From NCBI GenBank assembly GCA_903813345.2, contig CAIIXF020000010.1, forward strand, positions 18,177,181 through 18,241,180: a stretch of 64,000 bases of DNA, written 5' to 3'. The position numbers and the translations under genes are program-made. Under the pieces are notes generated by a model. It made no database searches and was not told the DNA's origin. It saw nothing but the letters and a program-made list of their open reading frames with translations. The DNA comes from Owenia fusiformis (lineage: Eukaryota; Annelida; Polychaeta; Sabellida; Oweniidae). How positions within the stretch are numbered: the stretch's first letter is position 1; every line of letters begins with the position of its first letter. Below, piece by piece: positions 21,301 through 27,300 of this stretch.

Positions 21301-24300
21301 TTAGGTCAAAATCTGAAAATGATATGTGATCATAATGAACTATTGACTCTATCATAGACTGTATTGATATACTTAATAGAAATAAACTTTTAATGCTCTG
21401 GTGATATTTTCATTGAAGCTTTACTCGGCAGCTCAATAGGATGTTTTGATAAACTTACATGAAACAATGTTTGAAACATTTGAACTACCCTAATACTTGC
21501 ACATGAGTAAGGGGTTTTAATATATAAAAGTGGTGACATATTGTTATAGTCTTATAATTTTTTGTCGATGGAGTTTCATGATCTCTGTAATAATAGCTTT
21601 TGTTTTTAAAATGTTTTGTTTTGAAATAAAATTACAATATGCAACTTCACAGTTCAAACATAAATATGTATATTTAGCACTGTCATTGACGCATGCAGAC
21701 AAAATTGAATCAATAATTTCATTTCTCAACAAAAATAAATGAAAACCCTGTCTGAGCCGTTTATTCAATGATTAGAGATGTCACGGTGATCGAGCATGTC
21801 AGTGTCCTTATAGTTGAGTTCAGATATAGAGAAGTTGTTTGTCCAGACGATAACTCAAATTCCATTTGTCATAATTGGTTCAGATTTTAAAGGCTGGTTT
21901 AAAACTGTTCTTTGTATTGTTCATTTCGACATGAAATATTTAAGTTTTTTTTATTTCATCTTATTATCTCTCTCCAAGTGGACATCCCATCAGTCAAACA
22001 TTACAGACTTTTCTTTGTATTGTTCATTTTGACATGAAATATTCAAGTTTCTATATTTCTTCTTATTTTGTTGTAGCTCTCTCCAAGTGGGCATCCTATC
22101 AGTCAAACATTACAGACTTTTCTTTGTATTTTTCATTTTGACATGAAATATTCAAGTCTTTATATTTCGTTTTTATGTCCCCACCACATAGTGTGGGGCC
22201 ATATTGTCGGCCTAGGCGCGTCCGACTGTCTGTCCGTCCGTCTGTCCGTCCATCTGTCCGTCCGTCCGTCCATCCGTCTGTCCGTCCGTACGTCCGTACG
22301 TCCGGGAGTTTTCTCCAAAACCACTACAGATATCACCTTCAAATTTTCAGGGATAACTTATGAGTGCATACAGATGTGGATGAAAAAAAATTAACTCGAT
22401 ACCTACTTCCTGTCGGCCATTTTGAAGTCAAATGCTAAAATCCTTGTCTGCAAACTTTAAGAAAAACGGCTTCACAGTTGCTTTTAAAACTTTAACATCT
22501 TGTTCAGCTCACTTCATTCTAGATCTGATTAGGTTTTGGACCTGTTAGCTCAGTCATGTCAGCCATTTTGAATGTTTTAAGAAAAGTTAGCGCACGATAA
22601 TACTTTGTATCATATTGAATGGTGTTTGTCAGTTTTCATACTTTAACTATTTAGTAGCTTTATAAATAATTTCAGGTGTGCTTTGTTGTAAAAGCCTATG
22701 TTATTGTTAACAGTAGTTATATGTGATAATTTTGTAAAAAGAAATCAGCAAAAACTCATAATCACTTTTTTATTGTCGGCCATTTTGGATTTTTCCGTCC
22801 TAAAATCTTGTCTGTAAAGTCTTGTCTACGCGTTTTCAGGTGAACCGTTTGGTAGATCAATTTCAAATTTTCAGGGAAGATTCTTAGTATGAAAATCTAG
22901 ATCTGATTAGTTTTTGGGCATTCTGGGTAAGTGTCAAGGCAGCCATTTTGGATTTTCCGTCCTAAAATCTTGTCTGTAAAGTCTTGTCTACGAATTTTCA
23001 GGTGAACTGTTTGGTAGATCAATTTGAAATTTTCAGGGATGATTCTTAGTATGAAAATCTGGATCTGATTAGTTTTTATGCATTCTGGATGAATGTCAAG
23101 GCAGCCATTTTGGATTTTCCGTCTTAAAATCTTGCCCGTAAAGTCTTGTCTACACGTTTTTAGGTGAACCGTTTGGTAGATCAATTTGAAATTTTCAGGG
23201 ATGATTCTCAGTATGAAAATCTAGATCTTATTAGTTGTTGGGCATTCTGGGTAAATGTCAAGGCAGCCATGTTGGATTTTCTGTCCTAAAATCTTGTCTG
23301 TAAAGTCTTGTCTACACATTTCCAGGTGAACTGTTTGGTAGATCAATTTCAAATTTTCAGGGATGATTCTTAGTATGAAAATCTAGATCTGATTAGTTTT
23401 TATGCATTCTGGATGAATGTCAAGGCAGCCATTTTGGATTTTCCGTCTTAAAATCTTGCCCGTAAAGTCTTGTCGACGCGTTTCTAGGTGAACCGTTTTG
23501 TAGATCAATTTCAAATTTTCAGGAATGATTCTTAGTATGAAAATCTAAATCTGATTAGTTTTGGGGCATTCTGGGTAAATGTCAAGGCAGCCATTTTGGA
23601 TTTTCTGTCCTAAAATCTTGTTTGTAAAGTCTTATCTACGCATTTCCAGGTGAACCGTTTGGTAGATCAATTTAAAATTTTAAGGGATGATTCTTAGTAT
23701 GAAAATCTTGAACAGATTAGTTTTTTGGCATTCTGGATAAATGTCAAGGCAGCCATTTTGGATTTTCTGTCCTCAAATCTTGTCTGTAAAGTCTTGTTTA
23801 CATGTTTTCTGGTTAACTGTGTGACGGATCAATTTCAAATTTTCAGGGGTGGTTCTTAGTATGAAAATCTAGAACTGACTAATTTTTTGGCATTCTGGGT
23901 AAATTTTAAGGTGGCCATTTTGGATTTTCCGTCCACAAATTGTGTCGGTAAAGTCTTGTCTACTCATTTTTAGGATAACCATTTGACGGGATCACCCAAA
24001 GGTGGGGACATTTTGTACACATTTGTGTTCTTGTATTTTGTTGTAGCTCTCTCCAAGTGGGCATCCCATCAGTCAAACATTACAGACTTTTCTTTGTATT
24101 GTTCATTTTGACATGAAATATTCAACTTTCTATATTTCGTCTTATTTTGTTGTAGCTCTCTCCAAGTGGACATCCCATCAGTCAAACATTACAGACTTTT
24201 CTCTGTATTGTCCATTTTGACATGAAATATTCAAATTTCTATATTTCGTCTTATTTTTTTTGTAGCTCTCTCCAAGTGGGCATCCCATCAGTCAAACATT

Positions 24301-27300
24301 ACAGACTTTTCTTTGTATTGTCCATTTTGACATGAAATATTCAAATTTCTATATTTCGTCTTATTTTTTTTGTAGCTCTCTCCAAGTGGGCATCCCATCA
24401 GTCAAACATTACAGACCTCTGTCACAGTTGAGGAGAATGAAGAGGGATCTGACCAAGAGCCAGACCAAGATGCTGTTGCCAGGTATGGTGACTTTAAGAA
24501 AAAAGTAGCTCCAATCTCATAGTTTCTGATCACCCTGTATTATCAGGGAAACCAAAATAAGTGTCCCTGACCTGGAAAAGTTGTGACTTTTTTAAAATTG
24601 CTCGTAAAATTACTGAATTTACCTCCGTTGTCATTCAATGTGTCAGCATTGCATTGTATGCCCAGTCATTCTTTCCATTCCCGGCATACAAGAGGCTGCT
24701 AATGTAAGTGGGTTTATTTGTTTGTGATTCAGGTATCTCCAGTCCCGAGGCAGAGGTAAACGGCACACTCTGGCTATGACGAGTCCAGCATATGAGGTCA
24801 CCGAAGAGCTGCAAGAGAGACTAGCCATGCAGCAACCTATAAGATCGCGTCGTTGTGCAGCATCACTGTTAACATCACCTGACAAAGACAGGATACCGAC
24901 AGGTGAGTTTTTTGAGATGTGAAATAACATGTTCAATATTGATTGGTTATAATAATAAAAGTGTAATTTAAACAATATGAGAATGTAACATACGCACAAA
25001 GTGACTCATAAAGTTTGCATCTTGACCAGGTCGGCCATAATTTCGTTAACCTTTAGGTGTAATGACATATTGCACCATAGATTCTTACTTTAATGAAGGA
25101 CAACTTTCAGGTGGTCGTGAATGTTACAAAGAGCAGCACATCTTGGTTGTACCCAATGAGAGGTATAGCCCAGTGAGGAGAGCAAGTGAGGGGGCAGCAG
25201 GGGTACAACGCTATCAAACACACCTAGAGAAACTATATAACCAGACAATCAATAAGGGTTCAGCACATAACAGTCTTAAAGAATTGCACCAAGAGTATCA
25301 GCAACTTCAGGTAAAAATATTAGAAGGGAATATTTCATTTTATTATATCACTGTCATATTCCTCACTCTCTCATTGGTCCATGTCCTACATGTGATTAAA
25401 AAATTAACAAGTGATATTCAACAGAAGGCACTTGACTTCCATTGAATATCAAATGATATTCACCAGTTAGTTAGACTTAGTCCAGTGTAATTTCAGTATC
25501 CCTGGTAATACATTGTTAAGTCCAGTATAATTTCAGTATCCCCGGTAGTACATTGTTATGATCAATTAGACATCAATAGTTTGTTATTCCATTAATGTGA
25601 GTGAGGAATATAACAGTGAATAATGAAACAAATATTTCTTCGGGCTTCGTGGAATATCACTTGTGAAAGATGGTCAGGTATTCCCCTCAATAGAATTAAA
25701 TATTTGTAGAGTATTATATTGCATATTTATATACAGTAAAACCTGTCTAATCCGAACACCCATGGGACCAGCCAAAAGCGTTCAAATTGGCAGGTGTTCA
25801 AATTTCGAGGATATTGTTGGTCGGGGGGGGGGGATTTTCATTGTTCAGTCCACTATATTGAACACTTAATACTTAAACAATACATGTTGTTGATGAGTTT
25901 ATTCTACAATAGGCTGATAGCCTACATGTATATGCTATGTTTTATTTACATTTTGAACAATTTCATAATTTTGGGAAAAATAACTCTTTAATTTTGGCAA
26001 AAACTTTGTAATACACTGAATAAGTATATGATAGTCTTGTACGGAATCTTATGCTTATTAAATGACTTATCTCATATTATGGTTACATAGCACTGCTTTA
26101 CTTTAGCTTGAAAAAGTCGTTCATTGTTGTTTGTTTCTTGGCACTTTTAGCATTAGCAATATTTGAGTAGATACCCTCTTCAGTTAAAAAGAATTTTTCA
26201 TGAGTGCTAATTCGAGATGATGCATAATCTTTCAAAATATGAATTGAAAAGTTGAATTTTTTCTCTTTCTCGTGATATAATCTTGTCTGCAAATGTGTCT
26301 GTGTTGTCTTTGTGATGATAAAACATTTACTGATTGAATCCTAGCTATCATAACAGACCCATGGGATATAAAACAGTTAAGACTTGTTCATAATCCAAAT
26401 CAAAAACATCCAGTTAATTTAAAATAAGGATAAACCAATTATCTCCCAGATTCTCACCTTTCTCTTAATCCAAATCAAAAAACATCCAGGTAATTTCTAA
26501 TAATGATAAAACAATTATAATCTTGTCTGCAAATGTGTCTGTGTTGTCTCTGTGATTATAAAACATTTACTGATTGAATCCTAGCTATCATAACAGACAC
26601 ATGGGATATAAAACAGTTAAGACTTGTTCATAATCCAAATCAAAAACATCCAGTTAATTTAAAATGAGGATAAACCAATTATCTTCTTGATTCATACCTT
26701 TCTCTTAATCCAAACATAAAACATTCAGTTCTTTTCTATAGGATAAACCAATTAACTCCCGTATTCCACCTTTCCTGTTGTTTTCCACAATTAGGGATGT
26801 CATTGAGACTTAAATAAGTTGATTAGGACAATATTGGTTCTTTGATTATATTGCATATGTAAAGATAATAAGAACTATAACATTGACTCAATATGTGGCT
26901 ATTATTGAAATGTCCAGACATTTGATTTCTGATAAAATGTTCAGATTAGACAGGTCAGCTTTTCAAATCTGGTTGTTCACTGTTCAGATTAGGAGGTGTT
27001 CAGATTTCAAGGTTTTTTTAACATGGGAGTCAATGGGAGGAAAAAATGGGACCGAAAAAAAGTGTTCAAATTGGAAGGTGTTCGGATTAGCCAGGTGTTC
27101 AGATATACAGGTTTTACTGTATATTTATTTTATTTTATTTTTATTTATTTATATATTTATATTTATATTACCTCTTCTATTAGAGTTACATTGAATTGTA
27201 AAGTTACATATAAAAACTGACAAAGTAAGAGTATGCTTGATATTAAGCATCAGTGAACTTATGGTTTAAATGAATCCATTATAGTGCATCTTCCTCAATT

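Follow-up and report, generated by a model that had tools for sequence, protein, structure and literature searches.

How can a transcript be spliced to the correct 3' end of an intron when several near-copies of the acceptor stand in front of the real one? The question is raised by a 64,000-nucleotide stretch of the genome of the polychaete Owenia fusiformis (assembly GCA_903813345.2, contig CAIIXF020000010.1, positions 18,177,181 to 18,241,180; hereafter the window, whose own numbering is used below), in which exon 12 of the gene for the kinase SIK3 is preceded by a tandem array of acceptor copies. The initial annotation of this DNA treated these copies as decoy 3' splice sites that could tune SIK3 output or isoforms. 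In this report, we describe the array, document arrays of the same architecture at exons of proteasome and chaperonin genes, and propose, with moderate confidence, that the SIK3 array is a local minisatellite-like array that spans the exon 12 acceptor by chance and belongs to a recurrent, tolerated and near-neutral class.

Sixteen exons spliced from the window yield one open frame of 1190 amino acids. The best PDB matches of its residues 1-357 are chains named SIK3 (8r4o, E 5.8e-164), and Pfam recognizes a kinase domain, the SIK3 UBA and a KA1 domain; the identity of the gene and the number given to exon 12 are thereby upheld. All SIK3 features described here lie on the forward strand. Exon 11 (20900..21021, 122 nt) ends in the donor TCT/GTAAGT (the slash marking the splice junction), exon 12 (24376..24482, 107 nt, phase 0 to 2) ends in the donor CAG/GTATGG and exon 13 occupies 24733..24902, with 3354 nt in intron 11 and 250 nt in intron 12. 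Because exon 12 is 107 nt long, skipping it would shift the frame. Among the 16 exons checked, it is the sole one with an array spanning its acceptor or donor. A separate tandem array of 135 bp x 8.6 is present in a SIK3 intron at 29739-30941; matches to its sequence at loci L014, L041 and L074 mark it as a repeat of the dispersed type.

Exon 12 is preceded by five copies of a unit of 109-110 bp, which is composed of 69 nt of intron tail and 41 nt of exon head. Tandem Repeats Finder (TRF) reports a period of 109 at 21968-22176 (93% matches) and of 110 at 24036-24416 (97%), and a repeat finder recovers a 59-nt core six times, at spacings of 109, 1970, 109, 110 and 110, in agreement with the unit composition and copy starts first described; the exon heads start at 21968, 22077, 24047, 24156 and 24266, and then at the real 24376. 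With head-to-tail units of about 110 bp at one locus, each containing a splice site, the array resembles a minisatellite. A whole-genome match of a 235-bp query (24266-24500) hit the SIK3 locus only, in six pieces; therefore, the array is local and not due to chance, and a dispersed repeat as the source of the unit was ruled out. The most diverged unit (21899..22008) places its exon head at 21968 and has lost the acceptor AG, reading TTATTAT/CTCTC, whereas the other four upstream copies retain GTAG. The second unit (22009..22117, 109 bp) offers a decoy acceptor before an exon head at 22077, and the third is divided by an insertion into an intron-tail part on its left (22118..22169) and a remainder (24035..24087) with a decoy acceptor and an exon head from 24047. 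The fourth (24088..24196, 109 bp) and fifth (24197..24306, 110 bp) units carry decoy acceptors with heads from 24156 and 24266, and the last (24307..24416) runs from the end of intron 11 across the real acceptor into the first part of exon 12. The fifth and last units differ at only 1 of 110 bases (109/110 matching), and the 24266 copy is the same as the real one over the last 20 intron bases and the exon head. The rest of exon 12 and its donor are present in the last copy only; on this point, and on the single lost AG beside four retained ones, the initial annotation was correct. A mutually exclusive or cassette exon cluster was ruled out, the upstream copies having neither the exon remainder nor a donor of their own.

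The gap of 1970 bp between the second and third copies was rejected as a part of the array, since it holds a separate dispersed insertion that had previously been missed. This is a high-copy element of about 1.87 kb at 22170..24034 (ends good to a few bases). It contains a CGTC-type tract and a tandem core of 162 bp x 7.4, and the ends that it shares with other copies are TTTTTATGTCCCCACC and GGTGGGGACATTTTGTACACATTTGTGTTCTTGT. Genome matches to its two ends number at least 41 and at least 40, the SIK3 locus included, with 40 of 2530 and 40 of 1662 candidates scored; the copies elsewhere have these ends in common and differ in their flanks, which shows that the insertion is separate. Among the matches listed, the right-end copies are 96-99% identical to the one in the SIK3 array, and the insertion is therefore probably young; as the element sits inside one unit, the array predates it. 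Insertion into the third unit also means that the tract upstream of 24047 is mostly insert-derived, with some 12 nt of the copy's own intron tail remaining and a T-rich stretch that is partly the end of the insert. The element displays TGTCCCCACC and GGTGGGGACA near its ends and T-rich left flanks in addition to its tandem core. Its type may resemble that of HINE/Helentron elements; HINEs, non-autonomous elements of the Helentron type, have subterminal inverted repeats, T-rich insertion sites, a 3' hairpin and internal tandem repeats. Tandem arrays in loci L053, L069 and L077 match this element.

We scored the acceptors with a matrix from the 14 other SIK3 acceptors, which is too small to rank sites finely and gives these 14 leave-one-out scores from 1.4 to 15.4. 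By this matrix, the real acceptor is of modest strength (7.07), and the decoys at 22077, 24047, 24156 and 24266 score 7.55, 4.13, 4.50 and 7.07. The description of all four as good acceptors is relative: those at 22077 and 24266 match or exceed the real score, those at 24047 and 24156 are weaker, and intron 11, array included, has 152 counted AGs, four of which, all outside the array, outscore the best decoy. Use of the four decoys, in order of position, would add 2299, 329, 220 and 110 nt, none divisible by 3, and stops would follow at 22392, 24218 and 24333 and, for 24266, within exon 13. The frame shift anticipated for decoy use therefore holds for all four AG-bearing copies, and each would, as computed from the sequence, bring in a premature stop as in poison splicing. 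The 15 highest-scoring donors of 21960-24490 include no GT from inside the units, and cassette exons derived from decoys are therefore unlikely.

We then ask whether the SIK3 array stands alone, as it did when first presented. A partial survey of 75 exons besides the 16 of SIK3 covered 30 kinase exons (of 144 matches) and 19 proteasome exons (all 19 matches) in loci L031-L079, 20 of the 44 CCT/Cpn60 matches (L080-L099) and 6 of the 85 myosin matches (L101-L106), with the ends of profile matches as a stand-in for exon ends. A tandem array lies across an exon end in 4/75 (rough 95% interval, 2-13%), three at the acceptor and one at the donor, and by group in 1/49 kinase and proteasome, 3/20 CCT and 0/6 myosin exons. 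All homologues of this survey are named via PDB matches. The acceptor arrays belong to those of PSMA4 (104-bp unit, 3 copies), CCT8 (83 or 89 bp, 9 copies) and CCT2 (96 bp, 4 copies). The donor array belongs to a CCT1 homologue (L084:241-550; 154 bp x 2), in which the exon tail and donor are duplicated downstream; judged by this layout, it is the mirror case, with a putative decoy donor. Two further acceptor arrays, found on reading one proteasome locus and kept outside the 4/75, occur at two other exons of a PSMB5 homologue (G000:C3:18449057-18453900): array a has a unit of about 94 bp in 8 copies, and the other has a unit of about 83 bp in 31 copies and precedes what we take, by its similarity, to be the terminal exon of PSMB5. 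Thus, four surveyed exons and two PSMB5 arrays show a pattern like that of SIK3, and the recurrence had been overlooked.

The six acceptor arrays, SIK3 included, contain 2, 3, 5, 7, 8 and 30 upstream copies (55 in total) of units typically 83-110 bp long. Most copy distances are not multiples of 3 in SIK3, CCT8, PSMA4 and PSMB5 array a. The CCT2 unit, at 96 bp, is open, and a decoy would thus add 32 residues for every unit included. The PSMB5 terminal units have an in-frame stop after VLDL, and the last two copies are whole terminal coding exons with the C-termini YVEEKKQ and YAEEKKQ; decoy use might therefore only shorten the C-terminus. AG/GT is found at the acceptor in two of the six arrays (CCT8 and CCT2) and is absent in four.

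Across these six arrays and 55 copies, we see no clear sign that decoys are either removed as harmful or kept as useful. The AG is in register in 53 of the 55, the exceptions being the SIK3 copy without it and a PSMA4 copy in which it lies two bases further on. At the 14 intron-tail sites before the AG, 40 of 854 cells deviate from the array consensus, a rate at which about five AG losses would be expected if the copies were independent, which they are not, against two counted. The eight upstream copies of CCT8 are identical over 55 scored bases, and the seven of PSMB5 array a are close. Distinct changes in the exon heads, relative to the last copy, comprise 10 synonymous and 15 nonsynonymous ones and no stop, one PSMB5 copy shifted by a deletion being excluded; random single-base changes would be 19-25% synonymous. 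These figures suggest decoy heads that are roughly near neutral and lean to synonymous changes, and exchange with the real exon could explain the lean.

Our data suggest a model in which tandem duplication gave rise to the units and unequal exchange or slippage spread them, the SIK3 array later receiving its inserted element. In most transcripts, the decoys would be skipped because an acceptor pairs across the exon with the downstream donor, so that the last acceptor wins; that is, the shortest exon to the downstream donor would decide the winning acceptor, as under exon definition. The PSMB5 terminal exon, which is without a downstream donor, would need another cue. Occasional use of a SIK3 decoy would give frame-shifted transcripts, probably removed by nonsense-mediated decay (NMD). 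If decoys are passed over and their rare products removed, the arrays would for that reason be close to neutral and persist. A transcriptome-wide study of alternative 3' splice sites is relevant here: exon definition significantly weakens the preference for the upstream acceptor when the two sites are of similar strength, and the long/short intron class behaves like exon definition (PMC9225289). That study resembles our case in that comparably strong acceptors compete, but it concerns ordinary alternative sites, whereas the arrays here offer 3-31 copies of one acceptor. Overall, though, the upstream one of the competing acceptors is preferred there in both distance groups, and a last-acceptor rule would therefore have to be stronger here (PMC9225289).

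Several other explanations have to be weighed. A mutational process that favours duplication around acceptors would enrich arrays there, and the typical unit of 83-110 bp, the six acceptor arrays (counting SIK3) against one donor array and the placement of locus-specific arrays all point that way: nine survey arrays match no other examined locus, overlapping or adjoining ones aside, and six of these span an exon end, five of them at the acceptor. The six of nine are a hint of enrichment, but the loci were exon-centred, which favours seeing boundary arrays, and a division of 6 to 1 falls short of significance (two-sided sign test, about 0.13). Moreover, exon ends fall inside an array in 4/150 cases (2.7%), compared with 20/784 offset points in the 49 kinase and proteasome loci and 9/186 in the other 26 (CCT 9/150, myosin 0/36), and arrays not belonging to the element account for 2.7% of the sequence surveyed (195,976 bases, with one array entering twice where L067 and L068 overlap). 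Neither depletion nor enrichment of arrays at exon ends is visible overall in the survey, and we consider such a bias improbable. Still less do we believe that the arrays are artefacts of assembly. Long near-identical arrays can indeed be assembled with a wrong copy number, but most arrays have private differences among their copies, CCT8 mixes 83 and 89 bp units, an element lies inside the SIK3 array, the six acceptor arrays are distributed over five genes with different units, and the contig is 37.5 Mb long; an artefact is highly improbable.

Two further alternatives grant the decoys a real share of splicing. Were they to regulate SIK3, decoy use would divert transcripts to NMD and thereby set output or isoforms; consistent with this, use of each of the four AG-bearing decoys leads to a stop, and one has the same sequence as the real acceptor at every scored base. 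However, a like architecture is found at proteasome and chaperonin exons, one of the five upstream copies has lost its AG and another has lost most of its intron tail to the insert, and the decoys as a class are without a clear sign of selection. We regard such regulation as very improbable, and the earlier proposal that the array tunes SIK3 finds no support, given that housekeeping exons share the architecture and that selection on the decoys is not evident. Alternatively, decoys may be used at appreciable rates everywhere, the resulting splicing noise being large, tolerated and cleared by NMD. That the decoys are near-perfect copies, and that competing acceptors favour the upstream site overall in the study cited above (PMC9225289), would fit this explanation; yet use in proportion to copy number, with eight upstream copies in CCT8 and seven in PSMB5 array a, would leave essential genes with little correct mRNA, and we think it unlikely.

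The reading of the SIK3 array as one of a tolerated, near-neutral class has its own difficulties, and the following observations weigh against it. In addition to the overall preference for upstream acceptors just mentioned, intron 12 is short (250 nt), which leaves room for intron definition. The survey is small and, with several exons coming from one gene, is not made up of independent cases; the CCT family accounts for three of the four hits. The synonymous share of head changes, 10/25, exceeds the expectation for random change, and the SIK3 decoy heads differ only synonymously (2/2 distinct changes). In the 49-locus set, arrays cover 1/98 exon ends and 1/343 points near exons (up to 800 upstream or 200 downstream) versus 19/441 farther away, as might be expected under selection against arrays close to exons. 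The CCT set is without such a deficit (exon ends 3/40 versus nearby offset points 9/150). The near/far split speaks partly against neutrality and holds our confidence in the near-neutral reading to the moderate level given at the outset. A broader form of it is possible, and we lean slightly against it: acceptor-spanning minisatellites would form a genome-wide class that affects a few percent of exons, those of essential proteasome and chaperonin genes included, and adds as many as about 30 near-perfect copies, and downstream context (a donor or the remainder of the exon) would dominate acceptor choice, with copy number, strength and transcription order hardly mattering, so that the last-acceptor rule would be nearly absolute.

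Repeated splice sites within tandem repeats have precedents. The minisatellite of IFI6 (6-16, G1P3) contains multiple splice donors, and two downstream repeat units are reported to be used (Turri et al. 1995, as cited in PMC4526556); there, as in SIK3, a tandem repeat supplies repeated splice sites, but these are donors whose use is reported, whereas SIK3-type arrays repeat acceptors that are not known to be used. The polyubiquitin gene UBC has tandem dual-specific splice sites and introns embedded in tandem repeats, and repeat expansion has been tied to intron origin (PMC10809524). Its splice motifs are likewise repeated in tandem units; however, its AGGT serves as both donor and acceptor and its monomers are variably spliced, whereas SIK3 has AG/CTC, its units consist of an intron tail and part of an exon head, and a whole exon is present in the last copy alone. 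Dual-specific sites of the UBC type were ruled out for SIK3 on this difference of motif. In Drosophila, novel introns have arisen via regional tandem duplication (PMC2891723), which also involves splice signals, but there a coding duplication leads to a new intron, while in SIK3 the duplication of an acceptor lengthens an existing one. Metallothionein genes of earthworms contain minisatellite-sized repeats inside an intron, with no repeated acceptors described in the accessible portion of that report (PMC12783039). Among the titles and abstracts returned by searches of the open-licence literature, none describes acceptors repeated in tandem with part of an exon head and recurring within a genome, which is weak evidence of novelty; a BRCA1 case report on a partly duplicated exon was among the results (PMC11839443). 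Together, this comparison suggests that repeated donors in a minisatellite and tandem dual-specific sites are known, and that recurrent acceptor arrays with partial exon heads may be new.

Some other features came to light in the window and the surveyed genome. An open frame of 539 codons on the reverse strand of the window (37542-39158) encodes a lysine-rich protein, possibly nucleolar and KNOP1-like. A myosin-head exon (model positions about 18-84) has a row of 12 matches listed at G000:C9:37986009-37994334 on the reverse strand, next to the remaining part of a myosin heavy chain head, and these exons are likely to be mutually exclusive ones in a large cluster. Locus L100, chosen for two side-by-side kinase matches and outside the 75-exon count, has at 397-710 a kinase exon with the motif VCHRDIKPQNLL in two diverged forms next to each other, both of which have one end resembling an acceptor and the other a donor; these are probably mutually exclusive exons, and we take the gene to be a GSK3 homologue. 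At G000:C12:29035853-29040235 (reverse strand), kinase and DEAD-helicase matches about 3 kb apart are each listed with a 3104-codon open frame, apparently a single one, which is unusual beside the intron-rich genes of the survey.

Acceptor choice among equals has often been tested with engineered duplicates. Here, genes that the animal needs provide a natural series of 2, 3, 5, 7, 8 and 30 upstream acceptors before real exons, and such arrays could be used to weigh position against strength and could tell whether exon starts tolerate repeat expansion as well as these genes suggest. They also carry a warning for annotation, as exon starts with such arrays are easily misplaced. If the last-acceptor rule is true, every array would be a natural experiment on acceptor competition.

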